Assembly (NCBI GenBank): GCA_009692925.1
Contig: SHYG01000009.1
Location: forward strand, 1 to 49,683
Source of the DNA: Dehalococcoidia bacterium
GTDB taxonomy: Bacteria > Chloroflexota > Dehalococcoidia > Lucifugimonadales > UBA3495
Reading direction: 5' to 3'
DNA: 49,683 nt
Shown: one piece after another, positions 5,993-33,246 of the stretch
How positions within the stretch are numbered: position 1 is the stretch's first letter
Layout of the letters: each line of letters opens with the position of its first letter
The notes under the pieces: generated by a model
Told to the model about the DNA's origin: nothing
Databases searched by the model: none
The model's input: only the letters and a program-made list of their open reading frames with translations
Made by a program: the position numbers and the translations under genes

Positions 5993-7609
5993 TCACTCCA
6001 CAATCGGACGGGAGACGATCCACAGGCTAACCACCGTGTAGCTCACCATCAGCGCCAGCAGGGGCAACTGGCTCCGCAGGGCCAAGCCACGGTCGGGGTA
6101 GAGGGCCAGGGAACGCAGGTGCGCCAGGTACACCGCCACTATGTGGCCCGCTACGATGGCCCCCACCGAGAAGATCCAGATGAACCGGGCGTTGGTGATG
6201 CCGATATTCACTTTGTATCCTGCGGTACCCAGCAAGTCCCAGCCCGCGCCGAAGGGGTCTGAGGACAGGGGAATAATCAGCTGCCCCTGAATCAGCAGAA
6301 AGCTCAGGTAGTGGGCGAACAGGTAGGCCAGCGAAATGGGTATCAGGGTGTAGACGAAGGTCCGCGCCAGGACGCCGGTGGCCGTGCGGCGGGCCACAGC
6401 CAGGTGCATCAGGAAGGTAAATCCCCAGTACAAACCCGCGAAGGCCAGGGTGAAGGCCAGCAACCCCAGGGTGTTGGCAATAACCGCCCCACTGAGGAAT
6501 GGAATGCTGGAGCGAGGGAGCTGCAGCAGGAAATAGAGCTGCACGTTCAGCCACTCAGGCGTGGCGCTGAACCCGTCAAAGGATACCGTGGCCAGCAGTA
6601 GCATGACCATGGCCATCCCATCCCCGGAGGCGGCTCCCAGAGTTTGGCCTGTCCTGCCCGCTCCGTCGCCCCGGTGCAAGCCCACCGCGGGCGGGCGCAG
6701 GTTCAGCTCCCAGCCCTGGCTGCGCTCTAGACACTCGTAGCAGTCTACGCACCCGGTCTCCCCGATTCCGTCGGCGCCGCCGCAACCCGCGCCGCACTCC
6801 CGGCAGGCCGCCGGATCGGGTACCCGCACTTCCGTGATGGAGAAACGGGACAGGAGGCCAAATACCACGGAGAACACCTCGCCGTGGCGCAGCCACTGGT
6901 GCTTGCCGAAGATGAACATCCCCGACCAGGTGATGCCGCTGTAGATCAGCACGATCCGGGCCAGGCTCTGGGGAGTGGAGTTCTCCCCCAGGGCGTTTTC
7001 CACCCAGCTAAAGGCAAAGAACAGGGCCACCGCCGGCCAGACTCCCCAGTGCGCCGGATACTCCCGCCCTAGGTCCAGCCCCTGGCCTTGGTTGCGCGTG
7101 TTAAGCCTGTTGACCCGCAGATATAGGAACTCGGCCCAGCTAAAGAGCACCTTCCAGGGGTTGACCAATGCCCACAGGTTGCCCAGTAGGGCGATGACAA
7201 AGCTCATGCCCACCCACCAGATTACCCAAACAAAGGTGGGCGCGAAGTTCTCCACCGGCGAGGCTGAGCCCAGCAGGCCTGCGGCCACCACCAGCAAGAA
7301 CAGCAGCACCGCCAGCAGCCGGGCCAGCGGGGCCAGCAGCCGGGTGAGCAGGATTCGCAGCCAGGCGTGGCGGAGCAGGTCAAGCCTGGGGCAGTCCATG
7401 GCGTGGGAGGCGCCCTTGATCATGCCGCCCATGAGGACGAAGGAGAACACCACCGCGGCCGCCGCGCCCGCCGCAAAGAAGCTCAGGGGCAGCGGCAGGT
7501 CATACCTCTCACCAAAGCCGTGGGCCTGGGCAACACGCAGGGGCCCCAGCAGGCCCAGGAAGAGAGCCAGCAAAGCTACTGGCAAAATTGTCCAGCGCCG
7601 ATTCACCAT
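5993..7609 (-). CDS. Polytopic membrane protein with six-cysteine loop
   Basis: A 538-residue integral membrane protein with a signal-like first segment ending AQAHGFGERYDLPLPL (about 28-42) and roughly 11-12 transmembrane helices. Its central soluble loop carries six cysteines as CxxCxxxC (C269, C272, C276) and CxxCxxC (C287, C290, C293), a likely metal or Fe-S site. The AHGFGERYDLP start recalls proteins annotated, on thin grounds, as fenitrothion hydrolase-like membrane proteins. I do not trust that function. AAGGAGGTGG sits just before the ATG. It is the last gene of a minus-strand run with a YtkA-like protein, a His-rich secreted protein and a cupredoxin-like lipoprotein, which suggests metal transport or assembly. 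Membrane topology is clear; function is inference. Confidence 0.75.
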   Translation of the reverse strand: MVNRRWTILPVALLALFLGLLGPLRVAQAHGFGERYDLPLPLSFFAAGAAAAVVFSFVLMGGMIKGASHAMDCPRLDLLRHAWLRILLTRLLAPLARLLAVLLFLLVVAAGLLGSASPVENFAPTFVWVIWWVGMSFVIALLGNLWALVNPWKVLFSWAEFLYLRVNRLNTRNQGQGLDLGREYPAHWGVWPAVALFFAFSWVENALGENSTPQSLARIVLIYSGITWSGMFIFGKHQWLRHGEVFSVVFGLLSRFSITEVRVPDPAACRECGAGCGGADGIGETGCVDCYECLERSQGWELNLRPPAVGLHRGDGAGRTGQTLGAASGDGMAMVMLLLATVSFDGFSATPEWLNVQLYFLLQLPRSSIPFLSGAVIANTLGLLAFTLAFAGLYWGFTFLMHLAVARRTATGVLARTFVYTLIPISLAYLFAHYLSFLLIQGQLIIPLSSDPFGAGWDLLGTAGYKVNIGITNARFIWIFSVGAIVAGHIVAVYLAHLRSLALYPDRGLALRSQLPLLALMVSYTVVSLWIVSRPIVE

Positions 7610-7629
7610 GCCACCTCCTTTGCTTGGGA

Positions 7630-7791
7630 TTTCCGTCCCGAACTCTTCACAACCGCTTTAGATACTTATGCACGGCGCAGTAAGAACCACCGACAAAATG
7701 ACTCCTCCGTTCCCCTTGATGGGAGAGGATTAAGGCGAGGGGTATCACCCTCACCTCAGCCCTCTCCCTCGGGGAGAGGGAGTACAGGGTG
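7630..7791. repeat. 41-bp dispersed repeat and GC-rich hairpin
   Basis: 7630-7670 is a 41-bp sequence found again, same orientation and 36 of 41 bases identical, at 34629-34669. Downstream, about 7772-7790 contains CCCTCTCCCTCGGGGAGAGGG, a strong hairpin. This 199-bp gap separates the cupredoxin-like gene from the membrane protein gene of the same operon and holds no gene. Confidence 0.6.
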
Positions 7792-7808
7792 CCCAAAGAA
7801 GCACGTCG

Positions 7809-8246
7809 CTACGTGGGGAGGACCTCCAGGAACCCCACCTCTTTCTCCTCCTCCTCAGCGTGCGCCGGGGCGGGAGTGCCCGCGGGCGGCGCCGCGTGAC
7901 CGTCCTCTGCCGCGTGGAAGGTGAGCTTGAACCGGCCGGTGGCGGTGGCGGTGAACGCCAGCTCAGTTACCCCATCGGCGGTCACATCTTTCTCAATATC
8001 GTAGCCGTGGAGGTGGATCTCCCCCGCCTCGTGGGCCTGAATCTTCAGCGTGACCGTGTCCCCCTGCTTGGCCTTGACGACATTGGGGGTCATGCCCGTT
8101 TCTTCCAGCTTAACCGATACTTCCACGTGCTGGGGCCCGCCGGAGTAGCAGGCCGCGGTTAGGAGCATACCCACACTAGTCGCCAACACCAGGGCGGACA
8201 TCAGACCTGTCTTGAGCCCTTGCGAAAGGAATTGTTTGGTGCTCAT
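7809..8246 (-). CDS. Cupredoxin-like lipoprotein
   Basis: A 145-residue exported lipoprotein. The signal peptide ends in a lipobox-like LTAAC (about 29-33). A cupredoxin-type beta domain follows (HVEVSVKLEETGMTPNVVKAKQGDTVTLKIQAHEAGEIHLHGYDIEK...GRFKLTFHAAEDGH), then a Pro/Ala/Glu-rich tail. Plastocyanin-like copper sites use His-Cys-His-Met. Here His residues are present (HLHGYD, FHAAEDGH) but no ligand Cys, as in EfeO/YtkA-associated cupredoxin-like domains, so metal binding would be by His/Met/acidic groups. AAAAGGAGA precedes the ATG. It is third in the 9.35-6.0 kb operon. Confidence 0.8.
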   Translation of the reverse strand: MSTKQFLSQGLKTGLMSALVLATSVGMLLTAACYSGGPQHVEVSVKLEETGMTPNVVKAKQGDTVTLKIQAHEAGEIHLHGYDIEKDVTADGVTELAFTATATGRFKLTFHAAEDGHAAPPAGTPAPAHAEEEEKEVGFLEVLPT

Positions 8247-8378
8247 GGTAGTTCTCCTTTTGATGAATGGTGCAGTGTGCCAGCCAGTGGCTCCGCGCTC
8301 CAGACGCGCCGGATTGCCGGCAGGATGTTGTACGGCGGAGAGCGGGCAACCGATGGGAAATCCGAGAGATGCGGCGGG

Positions 8379-8785
8379 CTAGAGCGAGGCCAGCGGGGGC
8401 CGCCCTAAGGGAGCAACGGCGGTCTCGGCCAGGCTTGAAGATGCGGCCAGGGCCACTAGGAGCGGGCCGTCGCCGTGGTTGGGGAACACCGGCACTGCAT
8501 CCAGCAAGGGAGTGCCGGCGGTGGACAAGTCCAGGCCAACGCCGTCATAGTTCGTGAGGTAGACCGTATATTCGGTCATGAGAGAGGCACCCTCCGCCTC
8601 ATGGTGGGAGTGGGCCACTTGAAAGGGATGCTGATGGCCCGGGACTTGATCGCCCAGATAGATGTGGGCATGACCCGGCTGTCGCTCGGCAAAGTGGTGG
8701 TCCGCACCGGCCCCAAAGAGGCCAAAGACCGGGCCAGCAGGGCGAATACCGCCAGAAGCAGCGGCAGTTTAGGAAGCCGGCGCAT
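8379..8785 (-). CDS. His-rich secreted protein, frameshifted
   Basis: ATG at 8785 opens a signal peptide (MRRLPKLPLLLAVFALLA) overlapping the end of the upstream gene by 17 bases. That frame soon turns nonsensical, while the next frame reads on from about 8731 as a sensible protein, VFGLFGAGADHHFAERQPGHAHIYLGDQ, followed by HQHPF and HSHHEAEG and then a 70-residue region to a stop at 8379. One missing C in a GGCCC run near 8731 would join both parts into about 135 residues. The join is either a real mutation or an assembly error. The mature N-terminus is very rich in His, which suggests binding of copper, zinc or nickel. I recognise no family. It is the second gene of the operon. Confidence 0.55.
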
Positions 8786-9347
8786 CGCCATCTGTGGCCG
8801 CGGAACGAGGCTTCTTGCCCTTGATTCTATCGAAAGTCCAAACGCCCAGGGCCAGCACCACCACGGCGATGGCCGCCACCAGAATGCCGTTGATCTCCAT
8901 GCTGGGCTCCCGCACATCCAGCGGCACGGTGATGGACTCGAAGCCCTGGCTGCCATGCACGTCCACTCGCACCTGCCACGGGCCGGGCTTGTCAAAGGGC
9001 ATGGCCGTTTCATAATACTGGGGGGAGAACAGGTGCCCTGCCTCCAGGGGGCCAAAGGCGGTGGACCCCTCCGGCCCAGATAGAGAGGCAATCCTGACCG
9101 TGGCCTGGGTCAGGATTTCGTTGCTGCCCAGGGAGCGCACCAGAATGCTGGCGTGGGTGCTGCCCACCACCGGCTTGGCCGGCAGGATGCTGAAATCAAC
9201 GCGGTAAGGACCGGCAGTTTGGGTAGACACCAGCCGGGCGCTGCCGTTGGCGCCAGCCAGACCGGTCCCCAAGGCAAGCCCGAAGAGCAAGACTGCGAGG
9301 GCCGCCACTGACCCCCAGAGAGAAGAGGGAACACACGGAAACTTCAA
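8769..9347 (-). CDS. YtkA-like membrane-anchored extracytoplasmic protein
   Basis: About 192 residues from a TTG at 9347. It has a signal-type hydrophobic segment (LWGSVAALAVLLFGLALGTGLAG), a beta-rich domain (GPYRVDFSILPAKPVVGSTHASILVRSL...GPWQVRVDVHGSQGFESITVPLDV) of the YtkA/FixH-like kind, and a C-terminal transmembrane helix (GILVAAIAVVVLALGVWTF) followed by Lys/Arg. Such proteins are often found near copper or cytochrome oxidase assembly genes. The frame is open to 9533, but the promoter at 9416-9444 puts the transcript start near 9408, which excludes upstream starts. It is the first gene of the four-gene operon. Confidence 0.65.
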   Translation of the reverse strand: MKFPCVPSSLWGSVAALAVLLFGLALGTGLAGANGSARLVSTQTAGPYRVDFSILPAKPVVGSTHASILVRSLGSNEILTQATVRIASLSGPEGSTAFGPLEAGHLFSPQYYETAMPFDKPGPWQVRVDVHGSQGFESITVPLDVREPSMEINGILVAAIAVVVLALGVWTFDRIKGKKPRSAATDGDAPAS

Positions 9348-9415
9348 ACCCGTCCACTGCCCCTGGGCATCAATCTCTTTCCTGCGCCTTTTAGTCGGAT
9401 ACCGTAGTTGGAATG

Positions 9416-9444
9416 ATTGTAGCATAGGGCAGGCCCGGTCACAA
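9416..9444 (-). promoter_or_regulatory. Sigma70-type promoter of the YtkA-cupredoxin operon
   Basis: On the minus strand, TTGTGA (9444-9439), a 17-base spacer and TACAAT (9421-9416) form a good match. The -10 is also extended (TGC before TACAAT). The predicted start is near 9408, upstream of the TTG at 9347. Confidence 0.65.
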
Positions 9445-9559
9445 CGAAACCCGGCAGAAGCAATGGCGGACTTCGACGCTGGCGCCCCATCAGAGGCGCC
9501 GGGCCGGCCATTGGCCCTGAGTCGAATCACCACTGACGATTCAGTAGCACCGGCGATTC

Positions 9560-9588
9560 TTGACTCAGAAGAGGGCGACCTTTACACT
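9560..9588 (+). promoter_or_regulatory. Sigma70-type promoter of the NYN-LOTUS gene
   Basis: TTGACT (9560-9565), exactly 17 bases, TACACT (9583-9588). The predicted start is near 9595, about 35 bases before the ATG at 9631. It decides that start against the in-frame ATG at 9463. Confidence 0.65.
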
Positions 9589-9630
9589 GGAGTAGAAGCA
9601 ATCAGCACGGGAGCGGTGTTCATAATCGGT

Positions 9631-11247
9631 ATGGTCGGAAGGGAAGGGAACCAACCACGGGGCGAAGACGTAGCGCTATTCATCGACTGGGAAAACTTCA
9701 AGATTAGCTTGGCCGCGGGCGGCCGAATCCCCAACCTCTCGGCCCTCAAGGAAGAGGTCTCCAACTACGGCCGGGTGGTGGTGGCCAAGGCTTACGCCGA
9801 CTGGGTAACCCGCTCACCGGAGCTAAAGGGCGCCAGCCAGTTCATTCTTGACCCGCCGGCCCTCTATGCCACCGGGATTGAGCCTGTGTACGTGCCCACC
9901 CGCCTGCCGGGGGGCCAATCCTACTCCTCCCAGTACACGCGCATGGTGCGGGTCAAGAACAGCGTTGACGTCAAGATGACCGCGGACTGCATCGAGTGCG
10001 CCCACTCCTACCCCAACATCGGCACCTTTGTCCTGGTATCGGGTGACTCCGACTTCATCCATGTAGTCATAGCCCTGCGGACTATGGGCAAGCGCGTGCT
10101 GGTCATCGGCGTGTCCTGGGCCACCTCCCGGCGGCTAGCCGACCAGGTGGACGGCCTCATCCTCTACGACGTTGACGTAGACCCCGTGACATTGCCGGAG
10201 CCCGCGCTGCCGCCACCCCCAGTCTATACGCCAGTCCCAGCCCACGCGCCGGCGCCGGCTCCAGTAACCAACGGCAGAGCCACCGCCGCAACCCCGGCAG
10301 GCGGCGAGATTACCCGTCTCGAGCTGCCCGAGGTCATCCGCGCCATCGAGGAAATTGTGCGCGCCGAGCGTCAGGCTGGGCGCACCCCGCTGCTCACCTC
10401 CATAAAGCAGCGCCTGACGCGCCGGTTCCCGAACTTCGACGAGAAGAAGGTGGGCTTCTCCGGCTTCAAGAAGCTCATCCTGCGAGCGGCCCAGGAGGGC
10501 AACATCAAGCTGGTCACCATGGGTTTGGTGGACTGGGTTTTGATGGCCGATGAGCCCTCGCCGGTGGAAACCGCCGCAGAATCTGCCGTGACCGCCGCGG
10601 CGGAGGAAGCGGAAGACCAGGCGCAGCAGCCCGACAATGAGGCTTCCCTTGAGGCAGATGCGGAGCTGGATACCGAGCCCCAGTCGGTGGCAGTGGCCGC
10701 CGCAGACCACGAACCCGCGCCAGCGCCCAGGTCCCCAGACCCCGACATCGCCGCAGCGGGTTTGACGCTGCCCAAGGGCCCCAGCGACGGGCTGGATGCC
10801 GGACGGGTTGCGGACCTCATCGTGATGGCCGACACTCTGGAGCGCCGCGAGGGCGTCAGCCACGTGTCCTTCAACTTCCTGGTGTCAGAAATCTGCCAAG
10901 CCCTGGACGAGGGGCTGAAAGTCGAACACCCGGAGATCGTCCAGCGCTGGCAGGCGTCCCACTCCCAGACCTACGTCACCAAGATGATGCGCAGTCTGAG
11001 CAAGGCGGACATGTTCAAGCACGGCTGGCATACCATCCGGGACGAGACCACCGGCAAGGGCACCCGCCGCCGCACCCTGAACCTGCTCCGCGACCACGCC
11101 CTGGTGCAGAACATTCTGGAGGCTCGATGGGGCATGACCCCCGCGCCTCAGGAAGCGCCCGCCCACGGAGCAGGCGACCATATGCCTGTTCTGGAAGGCC
11201 GCCCCGACGAGGATGCGGAGATGGAGCTGGCCCACACGCGGGATTAG
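9631..11247 (+). CDS. NYN-domain RNase-like protein with LOTUS/OST-HTH domain
   Basis: A 538-residue protein. The N-terminal NYN (PIN-like, DUF88/LabA) domain begins EDVALFIDWENFKISL, with acidic residues for metal binding at FIDWEN, DVKMTAD and VSGDSDF (about 10-160). A Pro/Ala linker follows, then a LOTUS/OST-HTH-like module, LPEVIRAIEEIV...LLTSIKQRLTRRFPNFDEKKVGFSGFKKLILRAAQEGNIKLV (about 235-300). Next is a long acidic Ala/Glu linker and a C-terminal helical domain (about 385-510). Combined with LOTUS, such nucleases are expected to cut or regulate RNA. The ATG at 9631 is chosen from the promoter just upstream and because family homology starts there. It stands alone, divergent from the metal-type operon. 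Confidence 0.85.
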   Translation: MVGREGNQPRGEDVALFIDWENFKISLAAGGRIPNLSALKEEVSNYGRVVVAKAYADWVTRSPELKGASQFILDPPALYATGIEPVYVPTRLPGGQSYSSQYTRMVRVKNSVDVKMTADCIECAHSYPNIGTFVLVSGDSDFIHVVIALRTMGKRVLVIGVSWATSRRLADQVDGLILYDVDVDPVTLPEPALPPPPVYTPVPAHAPAPAPVTNGRATAATPAGGEITRLELPEVIRAIEEIVRAERQAGRTPLLTSIKQRLTRRFPNFDEKKVGFSGFKKLILRAAQEGNIKLVTMGLVDWVLMADEPSPVETAAESAVTAAAEEAEDQAQQPDNEASLEADAELDTEPQSVAVAAADHEPAPAPRSPDPDIAAAGLTLPKGPSDGLDAGRVADLIVMADTLERREGVSHVSFNFLVSEICQALDEGLKVEHPEIVQRWQASHSQTYVTKMMRSLSKADMFKHGWHTIRDETTGKGTRRRTLNLLRDHALVQNILEARWGMTPAPQEAPAHGAGDHMPVLEGRPDEDAEMELAHTRD

Positions 11248-11275
11248 CACCCGCACACACTCCTGGATTCGAGAC

Positions 11276-11303
11276 GTAGGGGCGCACAGCTGTGCGCCCC
11301 TAC
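11276..11303. repeat. 28-bp palindrome, core CACAGCTGTG
   Basis: A perfect 28-bp palindrome with arms GTAGGGGCG and CGCCCCTAC, between the convergent NYN and cupin genes. It is the same subtype as the copy at 15822. Confidence 0.75.
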
Positions 11304-11331
11304 ACATTTGGACAGGCGCCGCGCCGGGTTG

Positions 11332-11667
11332 CTACTCTAGCGGGACAGTGGCGGAAACCCGGGGCACTCGCCCCACCACGCGGGTAGTATGGCCCTTGCC
11401 CGTGAGGTCTTCAATTAGGTTCACGTGCCCCGGCCCAAACCGGTGCTTCGTCCCGTCGCCTAACCCAATCTCCACTTCACCAGAGAGGGTGATCACAAAC
11501 TGCCGCCGCGGCCCCACGTGCCAGTCGCTGAACTGCCCCGGCGGCGTGGTGCGGAAGACTATGCTCTTGGCGACTTGAGGTGAGGTCCAGTCCGGGCTGG
11601 CTTTCAGGTCCAGCTCCTCAATGTGGGACTCCCCGTCCTTGCCAGTGTAGATGCGTGAGATGCTCAT
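11332..11667 (-). CDS. Small cupin-domain protein
   Basis: A 111-residue single-domain cupin. The conserved cupin strands and metal-site region are visible: TTPPGQFSDWHVGPRRQFVITLSGEVEIGLGDGTKHRFGPGHVNLIEDLTGKGHTTRVVG (about 45-104), with GSEVEI-like motif 1 and a GHxTRVVG-type motif 2. The metal-binding His set is partial. The function is unknown; members of this type are often described only as cupin-domain proteins. The ATG at 11667 has GGGAGG 7 bases upstream, so the long upstream open frame is not part of the gene. Confidence 0.8.
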   Translation of the reverse strand: MSISRIYTGKDGESHIEELDLKASPDWTSPQVAKSIVFRTTPPGQFSDWHVGPRRQFVITLSGEVEIGLGDGTKHRFGPGHVNLIEDLTGKGHTTRVVGRVPRVSATVPLE

Positions 11668-11759
11668 ATCTTGCCTCCCGTCGATTTGTGTTGTGGCGAG
11701 CCTGGGCTGACCCCGCGATTCTACTCCAGACCTACAGCCAGCGCAATTTCGCCGCGCCG

Positions 11760-12989
11760 TCACATATCCAGCACCAGGGTGGACCAGCCGAAGTCCCGCG
11801 CGCCCAGTCCCTCTCCAGTGTAGGGGTGGTAGTACTCCCGAAAGCCGGATTTCTCCACCAGCTCCCGGCTGCGGGCTACTATCACATCCGCCAACTCCGG
11901 GTAGCCGTGCTGCCGCAGCGCCCGCGCCAGGAACCAGTTGGTGTTCATCCAGGTGGGGCCGCGCCAGATGAAGCCGTGGGGGTCGCCCGGCAGAAACCGC
12001 GGGTCTGAGGCGGGCACTGAGGGCAGCGGGTAGGGCAGCCAGAAGTGCTGCGGCGACGTGAGCCACTGCTCCACCAGCCGCCGGACAATGGGCCGGGGCA
12101 GGTCCTCCAGCGCCAAAGGCATCAGGGAGCTGATGGTCACCACGCTCACCGGCGTCTCAGCCACGCCCGCCAGGTCAAAGAAGGCGCCGGCCTGCTCATC
12201 CCAGCACTTGGCCAGCAGGGCGTCACGGGTCTTGTCCGCCTCGCGGGCGAACTCCGCCGCCTCGGGGGCAGCGCCCAGCAGCCGCGACAGAGAGCGCATC
12301 CCCAGGGCATAGATGGTGTTGACCAGCACGTCCTCCACGTGGAACACGTCCGCCGCCAGAATTGCCAGGTCGTCGCCTCGCAGCGGCGCGTAAGCGGCAT
12401 AGACCTTCCGCAGCGCGGCGATGAACCCGGCGTTGCTCAGCTCCGTCAGCCCCAGAAGCTCGTCGTACTTGGGCGAGCAGTCAATGCCCGATTCCTCGGG
12501 CTGGATGATGGCGATGAGCCCGTCGCCGTCGGGATCGCGGAAATCCCGAAGCCAGCGGTAGTAGGCAATTAACGGGGGCAGCGCCGCGTCACGGAAGGCA
12601 ACATCGCCGGTGGCCTGGTACACCCGCTCCACGGCGCAGGCGATGATGGGCGGCTGGATGGTGGCGCTGAAGTAGGGTGAGGTCTGGGCCACCAGGTTGC
12701 GCCGCAGGAACTGGGGCTGCTTCTCCATCTCCCAGAAGACCAGGTGCGGGATGAAGCCGCTGGGCTGAGCGGCGCGGAGCAGGGTGGTCAGCTCGGCGCG
12801 GGCCTGGACAGTGTCCAGGTGAATTAGCGCGATGGCGTGGAAGCAGGAGTCCCAGAACCACTGGAAGGGGTAGCTGCGCAGCGACGGGCAGACGAAGCTA
12901 TACTCCTGGCCGTTCCAGGACGCCACCCCCCGGCGCAGGTTGCCCAGCAGAATGCGCCGCGCGGCGGCGGCGAGGGAGGGGGGGTGCAT
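11760..12989 (-). CDS. GH63-like glycoside hydrolase (mannosyl/glucosylglycerate hydrolase type)
   Basis: A 409-residue cytoplasmic (alpha/alpha)6-barrel protein. Motifs match the GH63/amylo-alpha-1,6-glucosidase-like group that includes bacterial mannosylglycerate and glucosylglycerate hydrolases: YPFQWFWDSCFHAIAL (about 40-55), QTSPYFSATIQPPI, DPDGDGLIAIIQPEESGIDCSPKYD (about 151-175, containing the likely acid Asp), FIWRGPTWMNTNWFLARAL, and FREYYHPYTGEGLGARDFGWSTLVLD near the C-terminus, where the likely base Glu lies. It would suit turnover of compatible-solute glycosides. The substrate is inference. There is no signal peptide, and the next gene upstream is an unrelated toxin-antitoxin-like pair. 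Confidence 0.82.
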   Translation of the reverse strand: MHPPSLAAAARRILLGNLRRGVASWNGQEYSFVCPSLRSYPFQWFWDSCFHAIALIHLDTVQARAELTTLLRAAQPSGFIPHLVFWEMEKQPQFLRRNLVAQTSPYFSATIQPPIIACAVERVYQATGDVAFRDAALPPLIAYYRWLRDFRDPDGDGLIAIIQPEESGIDCSPKYDELLGLTELSNAGFIAALRKVYAAYAPLRGDDLAILAADVFHVEDVLVNTIYALGMRSLSRLLGAAPEAAEFAREADKTRDALLAKCWDEQAGAFFDLAGVAETPVSVVTISSLMPLALEDLPRPIVRRLVEQWLTSPQHFWLPYPLPSVPASDPRFLPGDPHGFIWRGPTWMNTNWFLARALRQHGYPELADVIVARSRELVEKSGFREYYHPYTGEGLGARDFGWSTLVLDM

Positions 12990-13019: not shown

Positions 13020-13439
13020 CTACTGTCCCATCAGTTCCTCAATCTCCTCGATGAGAACAGACAGGTTGGGCCGGGTGAAACTCACCTGCGGCGCGGGGAT
13101 ACGGTTGCGTCTTAAATCCGGTGGAACGTGCTTGTGATGCGGGAATGTCGCCGCCAACGTTGCGTCATCAGGGTGCGGAAAGTCATCGTACCAGTACAAT
13201 CGGTCCCCGCCGTGATAAGCTTCATAACCATACGACGTGATCAATCCCCCATCAAAATCCAGCTCCTCCCTGATGCGTAACCGGAAGCCTTGAGAGAAAA
13301 ATATCTCGCCCTCAGCGACTCCTGTGTATGGACTGGTATTCCAGACGGACACCGTGTAGCGCTCCACATTTGGCCGGTCAAGCAATTCGACCACAAACCG
13401 GCTGTAGTCGGAGAGAGAGGTGAACTGACCGTTGTCCAT
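13020..13439 (-). CDS. TumE/DUF6516-like toxin candidate
   Basis: A 139-residue protein resembling the DUF6516/TumE toxin group. It has a beta-rich core ([64 protein letters not shown]) and the characteristic [19 protein letters not shown] segment (about 98-116), ending in an acidic helix [13 protein letters not shown]. It starts two bases after the stop of the 89-residue partner gene, as expected for a toxin-antitoxin pair. The GC content looks lower than in neighbouring genes. The toxin assignment rests on motif memory and pairing, not on a search. Confidence 0.65.
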
Positions 13440-13441
13440 TG

Positions 13442-13711
13442 TCAGTATGCGGGTTGGAAGCGCAAGACTTCAGCCACATCGTGGTGTTTGAGTTGAACCG
13501 TGTAGCCCTCTTTGCGTCGTTGCCACGTCTCGTATATCCCCTTCCAACGACTAAAATCCGTTCGAGTCTCGTCGTACTCATCATAGCGTGATAGGTTACC
13601 TGCCATGAGGGCTGCGTGGAAGTCCTCGCTGAGAATCCCGTACTTTTCTTCGTAAAGAGTTAGGCGGCGTTCGAGGAGCTTCATCTCGATGACAAACTCG
13701 TGGAGTTCCAT
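13442..13711 (-). CDS. Putative partner/antitoxin of TumE-like protein
   Basis: An 89-residue, strongly helical, acidic protein ([70 protein letters not shown]). Small proteins of this look commonly precede DUF6516 genes. GAGAGG lies just upstream of the ATG. Its stop is two bases before the next start, so the two are translationally linked. There is no recognisable DNA-binding fold in the visible sequence, so an antitoxin acting by protein contact is the simplest guess. Confidence 0.6.
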
Positions 13712-26579: not shown

Positions 26580-27302
26580 CTACTTCTGGGCTACCAGGAA
26601 GGCCACCAGCGCCTCGAACTCATCCGCGGTCAAGGTGGTCTTGAGGTTGGCGGGCATGACTCCCGGGGGGAAACCGGGGTGCACGAAGGCGCCGGGGTCT
26701 TCAATGGACTCCCGTATGTAAGCTTCGGAGCTCATGCCCGCCTTGTGCACGGCCCTTTCCGTGCCAATGTGGGTCAGCTCCGGCCCAACGGCCCCGGCGG
26801 ACACGCCCTGAATCTTGTGGCAGGCAAAGCAGGTGCCCTTGCCCGTGAAGACCGCCTTGCCCTGCGCCAGCTTCTCGGCGTCGCCGCCCGTCATTGAGCC
26901 GGAGCCCGGCTTGGGTTCCATGGCCCCGTCCTCGCCGTGATCCGAGACGTAGGGCACTCTGTGCTCCCGGGCAAACCCCCGCGGCTGGGCCTCGGTTCGC
27001 AACGCCCCGAACAAGCTCAACAGCGCCAGGCCTACGGCAAAGGCCAGCGCCAGCCCTCCCAGGAAAATCCAGGTTAACAACCGGGCGTCAAACTTCAGGT
27101 GCATGTAGAAGAAGATGACGATGGCAAACTTGATGGCGGACAGGCCAACCAGGATCACCACCAGCGGGAGGCCGGTGATGCGCTGGTGCGGGAAGATAAT
27201 GTAGAACTCCACAATGGTGATGAGGAACAGAATAAGCGCCACCACCACATATTGCATGAAGGTGGGGTGCCGCACCTGTTCCTGGGCGTGGCCGGTAGTC
27301 AT
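26580..27302 (-). CDS. Cytochrome c oxidase subunit IV fused to a cytochrome c domain
   Basis: A 240-residue fusion. The N-terminal half (about 1-105) is a prokaryotic oxidase subunit IV with three transmembrane helices and HPTFMQYVVVALILFLITIVEFYI...FAIVIFFYMHLKFD. A polar linker leads to a C-terminal class I cytochrome c domain with heme motif CFACH (about 158-162) and a Met ligand candidate in GFPPGVMPANLK. The heme domain would face outside and could deliver electrons to subunit II. It ends the coxB-coxA-coxC-this gene operon, just before a strong terminator. Confidence 0.9.
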   Translation of the reverse strand: MTTGHAQEQVRHPTFMQYVVVALILFLITIVEFYIIFPHQRITGLPLVVILVGLSAIKFAIVIFFYMHLKFDARLLTWIFLGGLALAFAVGLALLSLFGALRTEAQPRGFAREHRVPYVSDHGEDGAMEPKPGSGSMTGGDAEKLAQGKAVFTGKGTCFACHKIQGVSAGAVGPELTHIGTERAVHKAGMSSEAYIRESIEDPGAFVHPGFPPGVMPANLKTTLTADEFEALVAFLVAQK

Positions 27303-27314
27303 GGACCTAACTCC

Positions 27315-27977
27315 TTAAACTGGGAGGACCGAGGGTATCGGGCCGGTGAGCACGCCTGCGGCCACCGGCCCGGCATCATAACCACCAATGAGGTAGACCA
27401 GGGTGAAGATAACGATCCAGACGATGTCTACGAAGTGCCAGTACAGGCCGGCAAGCTCCACGTCCAAGGCGGTGCTAGGCCCCAGGCGGCCCTTAAAGGC
27501 GACGATAAAGAGGCTCACCAGCCACACCACGCCCAGGGTTACGTGGGCGCCGTGGAAGCCGGTCAGGGTGAAGAAGGTGCTGCCGAATAGGTTGGTGCCG
27601 ATGAACAGTCCTTCCACCACGCTGAAGGTGTAGAACTCGTAGACCTGAAAGCCCAAGAAGGTGAAGCCCAGCAACGCCGTGGCCAGCAGCCAGATTTTGA
27701 TGCCCCGCTGGTTGTTGCGGTTGGTGGCCGCCAGCGCCTGCACCATGGCAAAGCTGCTGCACAGCAGCACGAAGGTGCTGATGGTGGTCACCGGAATGTT
27801 CAGGATATCCACCGGGTATGGCCCGACGATACTCTGGCCCCGGTAAACCATGTAGGTGGCGATAAGGGCGCCGAACAACATGCAGTCGGAACCCAGGAAA
27901 ATCCACATGAGGAGCTTCCGGTGGTTCAGGCCGGTGGTCGTCGCCTCGGCGTGATGAGCTGTTTCTGCGTGGGCCAA
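27315..27977 (-). CDS. Cytochrome c oxidase subunit III
   Basis: A 220-residue membrane protein with about five to six transmembrane helices. Subunit III signatures are KLLMWIFLGSDCMLFGALIATYM (about 21-43), FTLTGFHGAHVTLGVVWL (about 136-153) and the final ELAGLYWHFVDIVWIVIFTLVYL (about 174-196). It is 12 bases upstream of the subunit IV fusion. This is the shorter form lacking the first two helices, common in bacterial caa3-type enzymes. Confidence 0.93.
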   Translation of the reverse strand: MAHAETAHHAEATTTGLNHRKLLMWIFLGSDCMLFGALIATYMVYRGQSIVGPYPVDILNIPVTTISTFVLLCSSFAMVQALAATNRNNQRGIKIWLLATALLGFTFLGFQVYEFYTFSVVEGLFIGTNLFGSTFFTLTGFHGAHVTLGVVWLVSLFIVAFKGRLGPSTALDVELAGLYWHFVDIVWIVIFTLVYLIGGYDAGPVAAGVLTGPIPSVLPV

Positions 27978-28014
27978 GAACTACACTCCTGCAATCCGGC
28001 TTCTAAGTCGCACG

Positions 28015-29910
28015 TTAGTGGGCCGCGCCATGGCCGGCCTCATGCCCGCCGTGATGGGCGTCGGGAGCGGACGCCGGCTCGTTAGCCCAACCCACGACTC
28101 CAATGAACGCGATGAGCCCCCCCACAAAGCTGATGGGGAACTTAATGTAATCCCAGCCAACATCGATGAGCATCCCGCCGCCAATCCATACTACCCCAAA
28201 GGCGGTAACCAGCGGCCAATAGGACGGGCTGGGCATGTGGACGCTGCCGGGCGCGGCATGAGGCTCAGGGCCTGGCACGGGCTGGCCCGCCGCTCGAGCC
28301 TCCCGCTTGACAATCCAGTAGTGATCCAGGCCACGGACGTGGGGTATTTCGGCGAAGTTGTACTCAGGCGGCGGCGAGGAGATGCTCCACTCCAGCGTGG
28401 GAGCGTCCCACGGGTCGTGGCCGGCAACCTGGCCCTTCTTGAGACTGTGGAAAATGTTGTGGACGAACATCACGAACCCAACAAAGAGGAGCACGTATCC
28501 CAGGCTGGAGAGCAGATTGTAGACCTCCCAGCCGTAGCCAACCGGGTAAGTGTATATCCGCCGCGGCATGCCATCCAACCCAGCAAAGTGCATGGGGAAA
28601 AAGGTGATGTTCATGCCGATGAACATGAGCCAGAAATGCCACTTGCCCAGTCCCTCGCCCAACATCCTATTGGTGAGTTTGGGGAACCAGTAGTAGATGC
28701 CGGCGAAGATGCCGAAGATGGAGCCGCCAAAGAGCACGTAGTGGATGTGCGCCACGATGTAGTAAGTATCCTGCTGCTGGAAGTCCGAGGGCGACACCGC
28801 GTGGGAGACGCCGCTCAGCCCGCCGACGATGAACAGGGCGATGAACCCGATGGCGAACAGCATGGGGGTTTTGAACTCCAGAGACCCGCCCCACATGGTG
28901 CCGATCCAGTTGAAGATCTTTACCCCCGTGGGCACGGCGATGAGCATGGTGGTGATAGTGAACACCGAGTTGGCCACCGGCCCCAGGCCCACGGTGAACA
29001 TGTGGTGGCTCCACACCGCCCACCCCATGATGGCGATGACGATGCCGGAGAAGATGACCACGGGATACCCGAATAGGGGCTTCTTGGAGAAGGTGGGCAG
29101 AATCTCCGACACGATGCCCATGGCGGGGAGAATCAGGATGTACACTTCGGGGTGGCCAAACACCCAGAACAGGTGCTGCCACAGCACCGGGTCGCCGCCG
29201 GCAGAGGTGTTAAAGAAGTTGGTGCCGAAGTTCCGGTCCATGGTCAGCTCAATCAACCCCACGGTGATGACCGGGAAGGCCAGCACCAGCAGGATGGAAG
29301 TGAGCAGGGTCATCCAGATAAACACGGGCATCCGCCACAGGCTCATGCCCGGCGCCCGCATATTGATGATGGTGACGGTGAAGTTCAAAGCGCCCGCCAC
29401 AGAGGAGGCGCCCATGACCAGCAGGCCGATGGCCCAGAAGTCCAGCCCCGCTTCAGGGGAGAAGGTGCGCGAGGTGAGGTTGGCGTAGGAGAACCAGCCG
29501 GCATCGGGAATCTGGCCCACCAGAAAGCTGGTGTGCATCAGCAAAGCGCCGAAGAGAAACACCCAGTAGCTAAAGGCATTGAGGCGCGGGAAGGCCACGT
29601 CCCGCGCGCCGATGGCCAAGGGCACCACAAAGTTGAAGAAGGCCACGCTCATGGGCATGATGGCCATGAAGATCATGGTGGTGGCGTGCATGGTGAACAT
29701 GGCGTTGAAGGTCTGCCCGTCCACTATGGTGCTGTTGGGCCGGGCCAACTGCGCCCGCAGCACCCCGGCTTCAAGCCCGGCAATGAGCAAGAAGATAAAC
29801 GCGGTGGCCCCGTACAGGACCCCAATGCGTTTGTGGTCCACGGTGGTGAGCCAGCTCCACACCCCGGAGTAACTGGTGGGGCGGGCTAATACGCCGGTTG
29901 TAGTCGCCAT
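28015..29910 (-). CDS. Cytochrome c oxidase subunit I
   Basis: A 631-residue heme-copper oxidase catalytic subunit. Visible are the low-spin heme His in FTMHATTMIFMAIMP, the CuB His and crosslinked Tyr in FGHPEVYILILPAMG (about 250-264), the CuB His pair in WSHHMFTVGLG, and the heme ligands in YYIVAHIHYVLFGGSIFG (about 378-395). The HPEVY motif marks an A-type (K-channel Tyr) enzyme. Additional C-terminal helices and a His-rich tail (DAHHGGHEAGHGAAH) extend it beyond 550 residues. Proton-pumping terminal respiration indicates an aerobic organism. Confidence 0.96.
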   Translation of the reverse strand: MATTTGVLARPTSYSGVWSWLTTVDHKRIGVLYGATAFIFLLIAGLEAGVLRAQLARPNSTIVDGQTFNAMFTMHATTMIFMAIMPMSVAFFNFVVPLAIGARDVAFPRLNAFSYWVFLFGALLMHTSFLVGQIPDAGWFSYANLTSRTFSPEAGLDFWAIGLLVMGASSVAGALNFTVTIINMRAPGMSLWRMPVFIWMTLLTSILLVLAFPVITVGLIELTMDRNFGTNFFNTSAGGDPVLWQHLFWVFGHPEVYILILPAMGIVSEILPTFSKKPLFGYPVVIFSGIVIAIMGWAVWSHHMFTVGLGPVANSVFTITTMLIAVPTGVKIFNWIGTMWGGSLEFKTPMLFAIGFIALFIVGGLSGVSHAVSPSDFQQQDTYYIVAHIHYVLFGGSIFGIFAGIYYWFPKLTNRMLGEGLGKWHFWLMFIGMNITFFPMHFAGLDGMPRRIYTYPVGYGWEVYNLLSSLGYVLLFVGFVMFVHNIFHSLKKGQVAGHDPWDAPTLEWSISSPPPEYNFAEIPHVRGLDHYWIVKREARAAGQPVPGPEPHAAPGSVHMPSPSYWPLVTAFGVVWIGGGMLIDVGWDYIKFPISFVGGLIAFIGVVGWANEPASAPDAHHGGHEAGHGAAH

Positions 29911-29942
29911 TCCTGCCTCCGCTGCTGCGGTCCGGTGTCCAT

Positions 29943-31127
29943 TTACTTCAGGCTCATCAAGTATGCAACAAGGTCGCTGACCTGGACATCGCTGAGCGTG
30001 ACCTTGGTGCTGCCGTCCGGGTACAGCGCCTTGGCCCGGCCGGCCATGTGGGTGCTAGGCTTCAAGTCGTTGGGGTTGTTAATCCATTTGCGCAGGTTGT
30101 CTGGGTTCAGCGGCTCCACGGTGCCTGCGGCGAAGCTGGTGCGGGTGGCCAAATCGGTGAGGTTGGGCCCCGGCGCAATGGCCCCACCGGAGTTGAAACC
30201 GGCCACGCGGCCGTCCACCACCGCGGGATTATCCACGCCGCTGGCGGTGTGGCACACGGTGCAGGTGCCCGCGCCCTGAAACACCGCCTGTCCCTTCAGA
30301 GCGTCGGCGGATAGCTGGGGCGCCTTGCCATAGCCCGCCACCCAGGTGTCGTACTCCGCGTTGGTCAAGACCTGGACACGGAACTTCATCAGGGCGTGGA
30401 TCACGCCGCAGAGCTCGGCACACTGCCCGTAGTAGGTGCCGGTGGCATCTGCCTGAAACCACATCTTGTTGGAGCGGGTGGGAATCACGTCCATCTTGCC
30501 GGCCAGCTTGGGCACCCAGAAGCTGTGAATCACGTCGTCGCTGTGCAGAGTAATGTTAATGGGCCGGTTCACCGGCACCCGCAGCTCGTTGGCCGTGGAA
30601 ATCACCTTGCCCGCGCCGTCGGCATCGGGGTACTCAAACTCCCACCACCACTGATGGCCCGTGACCACCACCTCCAGAGGCTTGCCGGCGGAAGCGGGAG
30701 GCTGGTCCAGCCGGAACAGCGTTGCCACCGACCACCCACCCACTGCCAGGACCAGGATGGTTGGGATAATGGTCCAGGCTATCTCCAGCGGCATGTTGCC
30801 GTGGGTCTGGTGAGGCAGCGGCTGACCGGGGCGACGGCGGTAGCGGATGATGGCGTAGAGGAGAATGCCCTCCACCAGCACGAACACCACCACCATCACC
30901 CACAGGAGCACGTTGAACAGGTGGAGCTGGCCCCGGGCCACCGGCCCGAAGGTCTCCCACGTGGACATGTTGGACTGAGGGCTGCACGCCACCAGCAAGG
31001 CCAGAACGGCCATGGCCGCCAGCAGCGCGAGGGGCGGGACGCGGCTCAGGCCCGGCCGGGAAACTTGCCGGAAACTGCCAGGCGTCCCGTCAGTGACGTT
31101 CCGTGACCGGAAGGGCAGAAACCCCAT
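29943..31127 (-). CDS. Cytochrome c oxidase subunit II with C-terminal cytochrome c (caa3 type)
   Basis: About 394 residues. A signal peptide with lipobox-like LLVAC, two transmembrane helices, and a cupredoxin CuA domain with VTGHQWWWEFEYPD, the His in DDVIHSFWVPKLAGKMDVIPTR and the CuA set CAELCGVIHALM. Then a class I cytochrome c domain with CTVCH and the distal Met in KPSTHMAGRA. This makes it a caa3-type oxidase. The ATG at 31127 has GGGAG eight bases upstream, and the promoter at 31232-31260 drives it. It heads the oxidase operon. Confidence 0.95.
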   Translation of the reverse strand: MGFLPFRSRNVTDGTPGSFRQVSRPGLSRVPPLALLAAMAVLALLVACSPQSNMSTWETFGPVARGQLHLFNVLLWVMVVVFVLVEGILLYAIIRYRRRPGQPLPHQTHGNMPLEIAWTIIPTILVLAVGGWSVATLFRLDQPPASAGKPLEVVVTGHQWWWEFEYPDADGAGKVISTANELRVPVNRPINITLHSDDVIHSFWVPKLAGKMDVIPTRSNKMWFQADATGTYYGQCAELCGVIHALMKFRVQVLTNAEYDTWVAGYGKAPQLSADALKGQAVFQGAGTCTVCHTASGVDNPAVVDGRVAGFNSGGAIAPGPNLTDLATRTSFAAGTVEPLNPDNLRKWINNPNDLKPSTHMAGRAKALYPDGSTKVTLSDVQVSDLVAYLMSLK

Positions 31128-31231
31128 GTGGTGACTCCCTGTGCGCTGTGCTGCCGCGGCGCCCCTTGCAATGGGCGTTGGGCCACCGCCAGCGGCGACA
31201 GATGGAATGTGCAAAATTTCACTAGCGGCAT

Positions 31232-31260
31232 ATTATCCCAGGGCGGCATGGGCCTGTCAA
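31232..31260 (-). promoter_or_regulatory. Sigma70-type promoter of the cytochrome oxidase operon
   Basis: On the minus strand, a consensus TTGACA (31260-31255), exactly 17 bases, then GATAAT (31237-31232). The predicted start is near 31225, about 98 bases upstream of coxB. It separates the oxidase operon from ctaB upstream. Confidence 0.7.
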
Positions 31261-31343
31261 CGGCATTTGGGGCATCTTTGGCAGACACTGCCCTCGTCGG
31301 AACCAACCACGGCCCGCCCGCAGGCCTGGGGCCGTTGCCGCCT

Positions 31344-32261
31344 TTAATAGTGGAAGACGCTGTCCACCATCAGGACGGCGAAGAGCAACGCCAGGTAGAG
31401 CAGGGAGTAGAGGTACAGGGTACGGGCGCGCGGCCGCGTGTCCTGCCGCCAGAGGCACCACGCCAGCGCGATGAAGACCAGCCCCAACACCGCCGCGCCG
31501 CCCAGGTACACCCACCCCACGGCCCGGGTGAAGCCAAACATGAGAGTCAGGGCCACCAGGGCCAGGCTGTACAGAAGAATATGCAGAACGGTGTCCCGGC
31601 GGCTGGTGACCACCGGCAGCATGGGGACGCCCGCCTCGCGGTAGTCCTCCTGGAGCAGCAGAGACAACGCCCAAAAGTGGGGCGGCGTCCAGAAAAAGAC
31701 GATGGTGAAAAGGTACAGGGCCGGCAGGTGCAGCCCGCCGGTGACGGCCACCCACCCCACCACCGGAGGGATGGCGCCCGCCGCGCCGCCGATGATGATG
31801 TTGTGGGGCGTGCTGCGCTTCAGCCACTGGGTGTAGACCAACGCGTAGAAGAGGGTGGCTGCCAGGGTCAATGCCGCCGCCAGCCAGTGTACCCACAGGT
31901 ACAGCACCGCGAAGGCCACCACGTTGAGCACTACGCCGAAGGTCAGGGCCTGCCAGGGGGCGATGCGCCCTCCCGGCACCGGACGCCGCCGGGTGCGCCC
32001 CATGCGCTCGTCGATGTCCCGGTCCAGGAAGTGGTTCAGGGCGTTGGCCCCGCCGGAGGCTAGCGCTCCGCCCAGTCCTACCAGGCACATGAGGAGCAGC
32101 GACGGCACCGCCTGGGCCGCCAGGAACATTCCCCCCGCCGCGGTGACCAGCAGCAGCACCACGATGGGCGGCTTGGTCAGGGCCAAATAATCACGCAACA
32201 CGCCCACGGAGAATTTTCGGCGGAGAGGCGCGGGCGATGCCAAGACGGGCGGCTCAGGCAT
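31344..32261 (-). CDS. ctaB: Protoheme IX farnesyltransferase (heme O synthase)
   Basis: About 305 residues with nine predicted transmembrane helices; it farnesylates heme B on the way to heme A. The prenyl-diphosphate motif NALNHFLDRDIDERMGRTRRRPVPGG is intact, as is YTQWLKRSTPHNIIIGGAAGAIPP and the second Asp-rich-like region FWTPPHFWALSLLLQEDYREAGVPMLPV. The ATG at 32261 overlaps the end of ctaA; an ATG at 32303 would add 14 basic residues and has a GAGG nearby, so the start is not certain. It is paired with ctaA upstream of the oxidase. Confidence 0.93.
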   Translation of the reverse strand: MPEPPVLASPAPLRRKFSVGVLRDYLALTKPPIVVLLLVTAAGGMFLAAQAVPSLLLMCLVGLGGALASGGANALNHFLDRDIDERMGRTRRRPVPGGRIAPWQALTFGVVLNVVAFAVLYLWVHWLAAALTLAATLFYALVYTQWLKRSTPHNIIIGGAAGAIPPVVGWVAVTGGLHLPALYLFTIVFFWTPPHFWALSLLLQEDYREAGVPMLPVVTSRRDTVLHILLYSLALVALTLMFGFTRAVGWVYLGGAAVLGLVFIALAWCLWRQDTRPRARTLYLYSLLYLALLFAVLMVDSVFHY

Positions 32262-33246
32262 GGGCGGGGCCCGCCTGGGGCGCCGGACTCGCGGCGGCGG
32301 CATGGAGCCTCGGAAGGCTGAGGGCCGCCAGGGCTACCACCGACGCCCAAGTTGCGCTGGCCAGAGCCAAATGCAGGGCCAGAAGAACTACCGGGAACCC
32401 CAGCCAAATCATTAGCGCGCCCGCCAGCACCTGGGCGGCAAAGAGGCCCGTGGCGGTCATGGACAGGAGGCGGGTAGCGCCACTCCCCGGGCGACGAATA
32501 CCCCGGTGCAGCACGTACAGCACAAACAACCCAAGGAGCAGCGCCGCCAGCCGGTGAAGCATGTGGATGTGGGACAACCGGCCCGCCGGCCCGCCCAGAA
32601 CCGACGTCCCGTCGCACAGCGGCCAGCTAGGGCAGGCGGCAAGGGCGCCGCTGGCGGTGACGAAGGCCCCAGTGAGCAGCAACAGGTAGAGGACGCCCGC
32701 GGCGGCCAGCGCCAGCCGGGGAGACAATCCCGGCGCTTCTCCGCTGGCGTCCGCAGATCGCGTATGTTCATGCGCCGCTGCGCTGCTAGGCCGGCGGGCG
32801 GCTACCGCCAGCACCACCAAACAGGCCAGCAGCGCCTGCCCCAGGGCCAGATGCGCCGCCACGGTGACCGGCGGCAACTCCCACAGCACCGTCACTCCGC
32901 CCAAGATCGCTTGGCCCGCCAGCAGCACCACCGCCAGAGTGGCAGTCACCACCAGCCACGGCTCTTGCCGGCGAGTCCACCAGACCAGCCCCGCGGTGGC
33001 CAGCACCAGGGGGCTCACCACCGCCGACGCCACGAACCGGTGGGTGTATTCAATTACCGCCGTCAGCTCCCAGGGGGGCAGCACCCGGCCGTGGCACAGG
33101 GGCCAGTCGGGGCAGCCCAGGCCGGAGCCGGAGACCCGCACCACGCCGCCCACCACCACCAGCACCAAGGTGGCCAGGGCCGCCAGCAGGGAGAGGGTCT
33201 GAATCAGGCCTTGCCCGCGTTCCGCGCTCATGACGTTAGCCCGCAT
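32254..33246 (-). CDS. ctaA: Heme A synthase (COX15/CtaA)
   Basis: A 330-residue, eight-helix membrane protein oxidising heme O to heme A. Two related halves are visible, each with a Cys pair loop: RVSGSGLGCPDWPLCHGRVLPP (about 33-54) and ALAACPSWPLCDGTS in the second half. Heme-ligand His candidates lie in EYTHRFVAS, AHLALGQALL, HMLHRLAALLLG and ALHLALASATW. The start could also be the ATG at 33231. It overlaps ctaB by eight bases, and the pair supplies heme A to the downstream oxidase. Confidence 0.92.
   Translation of the reverse strand: MRANVMSAERGQGLIQTLSLLAALATLVLVVVGGVVRVSGSGLGCPDWPLCHGRVLPPWELTAVIEYTHRFVASAVVSPLVLATAGLVWWTRRQEPWLVVTATLAVVLLAGQAILGGVTVLWELPPVTVAAHLALGQALLACLVVLAVAARRPSSAAAHEHTRSADASGEAPGLSPRLALAAAGVLYLLLLTGAFVTASGALAACPSWPLCDGTSVLGGPAGRLSHIHMLHRLAALLLGLFVLYVLHRGIRRPGSGATRLLSMTATGLFAAQVLAGALMIWLGFPVVLLALHLALASATWASVVALAALSLPRLHAAAASPAPQAGPAHA

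Follow-up and report, generated by a model that had tools for sequence, protein, structure and literature searches.

Contig SHYG01000009.1 of a Dehalococcoidia genome from the phylum Chloroflexota (GenBank assembly GCA_009692925.1; 2.07 Mb, 91% complete) contains, within the 49,683-nucleotide (nt) stretch that we analysed and refer to as the window, a run of genes on the minus strand (positions 9347 to 5993) that a first-pass annotation had proposed to be an undescribed metal-handling operon. In order of transcription, these genes encode a YtkA-like protein, a His-rich protein, a cupredoxin lipoprotein and a 538-amino-acid membrane protein that we call mem; cup-mem denotes the pair formed by the cupredoxin and mem. 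Among named relatives, those nearest to mem belong to SAR202/Dehalococcoidia genomes within the Chloroflexota. The protein belongs to no described family in the databases searched, and its predicted fold is without a solved relative.

The four genes and their products

The mem gene (5993–7609, minus strand) is an intact open reading frame (ORF) whose product starts with a predicted cleavable signal, followed by His30. Alignments, a structural model and the alternation of charge between loops suggest that mem has about 10 transmembrane (TM) helices, with the N terminus outside and a Cys-rich loop (residues ~269–293) in the cytoplasm. In an alignment of 66 homologues, haloarchaeal proteins included, H433, H489, H497 and M521 are invariant (66/66) and fall within predicted TM helices; 64 of them retain D345, and 62 retain His30, likely the first residue following signal cleavage. 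The Cys loop, which reads CxxC...CxxCxxC in SAR202-type proteins, had been singled out by the first-pass annotation. Both the ORF and the loop are real, but the loop is confined to a subfamily and its charge bias is that of a cytoplasmic segment. Since whole branches of the family lack it, we ruled it out as the core metal site of mem.

Searches of Pfam, NCBIfam and the sequences of the Protein Data Bank (PDB) with mem returned no family and no relative. Although the structural model is confident (pLDDT 89, pTM 0.88), comparing it with the PDB using Foldseek gave nothing under E 0.06 (TM-score ~0.13). We rejected the possibility that mem is a divergent CopD (PF05425), with no Pfam match and an hhalign probability of 0.4% against 13 CopCD proteins, and likewise a divergent CtaG (hhalign probability 0.5%). 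The label "fenitrothion hydrolase", which mem-like proteins may carry, was dropped, as we found nothing usable in the literature and annotated plasmid homologues are named "hypothetical protein". One of the two outcomes that would have refuted the first-pass annotation, a match of mem to a known transporter or an unrelated enzyme, did not emerge from any of these comparisons.

Upstream of mem, an intact ORF (7809–8246, minus strand) encodes a lipoprotein with a cupredoxin fold and a lipobox (...LLTAAC). Its match to Pfam Cupredoxin_1 (PF13473), at 27.1 bits, lies just above the curated cut-off of 27.0, and the profile of its family matches copper nitrite reductase (1.2e-6), nitrosocyanin, laccases and CuA domains in the PDB. 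As previously noted from the sequence, the usual Cys ligand is missing: no conserved Cys occurs in the mature domain in the family alignment and, instead of the Cys and two His ligands of type 1 blue copper sites, there are three invariant His, two in an HxHxY motif and one later (H78, H80 and H111).

The first gene of the run (8769–9347, minus strand) is also intact, and its proposed TTG start at 9347 was kept, with the stop at 8769. The encoded protein consists of a signal segment, an Ig-like beta sandwich and a C-terminal TM helix. It scores 19.9 bits against Pfam YtkA (PF13115), under the cut-off of 25.9, and 8 of the 26 members of its family match PF13115 at E ≤ 0.01; H65 is invariant in the family. 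When an AlphaFold2 model (pLDDT 88) was compared with the PDB using Foldseek, the top fold match was H. pylori CrdA (E 1.8e-6, TM-score 0.74 on target), in both apo and Ag-bound structures.

The His-rich gene is spread over two frames. Its 5′ part (8576–8791, minus strand), which overlaps the end of the YtkA-like gene, starts at 8791 or 8785 and encodes the signal peptide MAMRRLPKLPLLLAVFALLARSLASLGP. The mature domain (DHHFAERQPGHAHIYLGDQVPGHQHPF...) lies in the other frame (8379–8768, minus strand), in which the His-rich part reads DHHFAERQPGHAHIYLG...HQHPF...HSHH. The frame switches at ~8703–8713, where the gene is one base short compared with the family pattern GPxxDHHFAER. Because 13 relatives carry a single intact His-rich gene, we attribute the frameshift to misassembly or to a mutation that is recent and local; programmed frameshifting was ruled out on the same ground. 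The secreted His-rich protein described earlier is not contained in a single frame, and the four-gene run consists of three intact ORFs and one split gene.

The first-pass annotation placed a single promoter ahead of the run. A consensus scan, which alone is no proof of function, found one extended −10 promoter-like site (9444–9416, minus strand) ~70 nt ahead of the first gene; its sequence is TTGTGA-17-TACAAT, and a TG precedes the −10. Within the run, the gap between the cupredoxin and mem genes is ~200 nt, compared with mostly 0–52 nt in relatives, because a dispersed intergenic repeat (7626–7792) sits between them. This repeat, which is predicted to form a strong RNA hairpin (folding z −3.65), occurs in many copies in the genome, with partial copies on many other contigs, and is inserted inside the operon. 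An Rfam search of the operon region returned no RNA family.

Distribution and neighbourhoods of mem

The mem gene is present in 39 of 59 related genomes (26 of the 30 of good quality) and in 66 of 261 genomes across the phylum. It also occurs in Thioglobus, Alphaproteobacteria, Rubrobacter and Microvirga, and mem alone extends to haloarchaea. To describe its surroundings, profiles of the four proteins were run on all ORFs at 103 mem loci, for which counts are approximate, as one locus (L088) duplicates another (L048) and several fall on shared contigs. About half of these loci have a cupredoxin gene ahead of mem in the same orientation, nearly always adjacent, and about 30 encode a YtkA-like protein beside mem. 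The association of YtkA-like, His-rich and cupredoxin genes with mem, on which the first-pass annotation depended, is found complete, with all four genes on the same strand, at 11 further loci (L040, L041, L046, L054, L070, L072–L076 and L086).

Adjacent cup-mem pairs are found in Chloroflexota, Actinomycetota and Pseudomonadota. In Variovorax, Mycolicibacterium, Mycobacterium dioxanotrophicus, Pseudonocardia and Rhodococcus, mem shares only 26–41% identity with a Rubrobacter mem, yet the gene immediately upstream of it still encodes a cupredoxin. Since such distant homologues keep the upstream cupredoxin, cup-mem is the older core, with the YtkA-like and His-rich genes as lineage-specific additions. 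In haloarchaea, the gene ahead of mem encodes, in place of the cupredoxin, a very small C2H2-like protein that has a single TM helix and a CxxC...HxxxxH pattern (L179:4544–4810, L180:4615–4872).

Copper genes lie near mem in many of the other genomes. CopC together with CopD was found at L075, L080, L084, L156 and L162, all verified with Pfam, and at L157 with a home-made profile only; CopC without CopD was found at L170 and L172, and by profile only at L171 and L175. The six CopD-bearing neighbourhoods compare with ~0.27 expected by chance among 75 loci (Poisson P ~4e-7, from a background of 30 CopD genes above cut-off in 40 genomes), an estimate that uses approximate values for locus number and genome size and takes no account of relatedness, although the six loci span several families. 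Matches of the "copcd" profile at L177 and L178 proved to be COX2-cytochrome c proteins and were excluded from these counts. At four loci, the CopC-CopD protein bears a C-terminal cytochrome c domain (L075:8605–10908, L080:3755–6004, L084:1561–3837 and L156:3259–5490), a fusion that hints at copper uptake coupled to a redox step.

Copper enzymes and their assembly factors are also among the neighbours. The copper hydrocarbon monooxygenase (hmo) loci on plasmids of M. dioxanotrophicus and M. chubuense NBB4 include cup-mem, and in methanotroph and nitrifier operons copC, copD and PCuAC hold a comparable position (PMC6189053). COX2 and COX1 of a caa3 oxidase are near mem at L076, COX2-cytochrome c at L177 and L178, CtaG at L160, CtaB at L052 and PCuAC in Sulfitobacter. 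Because of these copper gene neighbours in unrelated organisms, the PDB matches of the cupredoxin, the CrdA-like fold of the YtkA-like model and the three His and one Met that never vary in mem, we consider it highly probable that the gene cluster handles copper, the metal that the first-pass annotation had offered as its example.

Several other genes were observed around mem. Directly upstream, Thioglobus and a Chloroflexota genome have a large gene for a sortilin/BNR-type beta-propeller (L044:3–2681, L090:2656–5931), and a similarly large ORF (7980–11165) lies upstream at L151. In Alphaproteobacteria, a YncE-like beta-propeller gene is divergent from cup-mem (L050:4262–5437 and similar loci). 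In the window itself, a gene for an NYN-domain protein, divergent from the operon, is followed by one for an MGH1-like glycoside hydrolase (9247–12989), and genes of the NYN type also occur near mem at L040, L084, L089 and L097. Farther along, a TumE-type toxin gene and a small gene upstream of it (13020–13711) are a likely toxin-antitoxin pair.

Probable copper supply and its alternatives

If the cluster handles copper, what is the copper for? The caa3 oxidase that the first-pass annotation had noticed elsewhere in the window is encoded, together with haem A genes, at 26580–33246 (minus strand; COX4/cytochrome c, COX3, COX1, COX2-cytochrome c, CtaB and CtaA), 17–27 kb from the operon and not adjacent to it. 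The genome also carries CtaG, away from the operon, and an 852-amino-acid frame with two HMA domains that we interpret as a copper P-type ATPase, whereas CopC (PF04234), SCO1 and PCuAC were not detected in this 91% complete assembly. Since the oxidase, CtaG and the two-HMA protein are present and those three factors went undetected, the operon could fill a gap in copper supply.

We favour, as probable, a module for copper acquisition and delivery, in which copper is captured outside the cell, relayed to mem, transferred through or into the membrane and supplied to cuproenzymes; the direction of movement is, in our judgement, likewise probably toward supply. The His-rich protein, the YtkA-like protein and the three-His cupredoxin would bind copper outside the cytoplasmic membrane and pass it to mem, which it may enter via His30 at the new N terminus once the signal is cleaved. 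Within mem, the path could run along H433, H489, M521 and H497, and in SAR202-type proteins the cytoplasmic Cys loop may accept or sense copper. The delivered metal would serve cuproenzymes, in this genome most likely the caa3 oxidase.

Not all observations favour a supply module, and those that weigh against it bear on different alternatives. Close homologues at L065–L068 stand alone, with uninformative neighbourhoods. The mem copies of Rhizobium, Sagittula and Variovorax lie in catabolic loci, the distant homologues being found with Rhizobium nicotinate genes and with TctC, TRAP and liv genes, as might be expected if mem were unrelated to copper in function, an enzyme or transporter that is near copper genes by chance. 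However, the upstream cupredoxin is kept even where mem identity is only 26–41%, as in Variovorax, Mycolicibacterium, Pseudonocardia and Rhodococcus, and the copper neighbours are numerous and independent, making such a coincidence extremely improbable. Another homologue (L168) adjoins ZnuA, and "iron transporter" genes occur near mem in Haloarcula and Haloferax. These neighbours, and the fact that His-rich proteins are good binders of zinc and nickel, would suit a module for another metal (zinc, nickel or iron) or one of mixed specificity. Yet the majority of metal-related neighbours of mem are copper-specific, and both the cupredoxin fold and the CrdA-like fold belong to copper proteins; we regard a different or mixed specificity as very improbable.

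The main alternative is that the module confers copper resistance, with the exported proteins sequestering copper and mem exporting it or excluding it from the cytoplasm. P-type ATPases near mem fit resistance as well as supply: a copper ATPase is encoded at L079 and, by profile, at L178, and Haloarcula, Haloferax and M. gallinarum have heavy-metal ATPases. In M. gallinarum, a multicopper oxidase also lies beside mem. In addition, CrdA, the closest fold to the YtkA-like protein, is named as a copper resistance determinant. On the other side, neighbours that require copper (hmoCAB and caa3 oxidase) or are linked to its use (CtaG), together with CopC-CopD, point to supply, and in the genome studied here the supply role seems vacant, given an oxidase without detected CopC, SCO1 or PCuAC. 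Resistance is thus an unlikely explanation, though the strongest of the competitors.

It is also conceivable that mem moves no metal across the membrane but is a dedicated assembly factor like CtaG, Sco or CtaK, acting from the outer side on an oxidase or monooxygenase either to insert copper or to carry out a redox step. CtaG, COX2-cytochrome c, Redoxin and hmoCAB among the neighbours agree with this idea, as does the role of CtaK, a YtkA protein, in CuA assembly. COX1 is found in 63 of the 66 mem-bearing genomes and in 157 of the 195 genomes without mem, phylum-wide (Fisher P 0.003, confounded by phylogeny). This enrichment is modest, and the three mem genomes in which COX1 was not detected count against both supply of an oxidase and an assembly factor. 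Against the latter, moreover, the genome already has CtaG, mem accompanies several unrelated cuproenzymes, and the invariant His and Met residues, spread along predicted TM helices, would resemble a path rather than a single outer site. We consider an assembly factor less likely than resistance.

Returning to copper supply, the route by which copper crosses bacterial membranes to reach oxidases and methane- and alkane-oxidising enzymes is only partly known. With four invariant residues of the kind that ligate copper and a cupredoxin partner, mem is a widespread, unnamed candidate. It is possible, if not quite probable, that mem defines a class of copper transporters not described before, with a distinct fold. 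This class would span Chloroflexota, Actinomycetota, Pseudomonadota and haloarchaea, would in bacteria mostly have a three-His cupredoxin as its donor, and would provide copper to oxidases and copper monooxygenases in the absence of CopC-CopD. If so, a function could be assigned to "hypothetical" proteins in many genomes, including those of mycobacterial hmo plasmids and SAR202-type marine bacteria.

Comparison with known systems

Several known copper proteins resemble parts of the proposed module. Caa3_CtaG and CtiP are, like mem, polytopic membrane proteins with invariant His that are linked to oxidase copper; CtaG, the one of the two that was compared, has no profile similarity to mem. H. 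pylori CrdA shares the fold of the YtkA-like domain but bears the name of a resistance determinant, and we know of no mem-like partner for it. Like CtaK of B. subtilis, the first protein of the operon is YtkA-like, membrane-anchored and endowed with a conserved His, and a caa3 oxidase is encoded in the same genome. Unlike CtaK, however, it scores marginally in Pfam, is anchored by a TM helix rather than as a lipoprotein, and belongs to a genome in which no Sco was detected.

In the mycobacterial hmo loci, cup-mem takes the place that the accessory genes copC, copD, PCuAC and pmoD hold beside the copper membrane monooxygenases of pmo and amo operons, with the difference that mem is an unrelated membrane protein and its cupredoxin lacks the Cys.

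A functional parallel to the operon is B. subtilis YcnJ with YcnI. YcnJ, a CopC-CopD-YtkA protein, is a copper importer that supports both haem-copper oxidases under copper limitation, and YtkA/CtaK domains function in CuA assembly, within a pathway that is itself treated as still speculative and in need of biochemistry (PMC13344008). Both systems would capture copper extracytoplasmically and include a YtkA-type domain as well as a polytopic membrane part, which in YcnJ has an essential His. They differ in that no CopC was detected in the genome studied here and mem is no CopD by profile, so that capture would fall to the cupredoxin and the His-rich protein. The proposed role of the operon would match that of CopC-CopD-YtkA, performed with an unrelated membrane protein and no CopC-CopD member.

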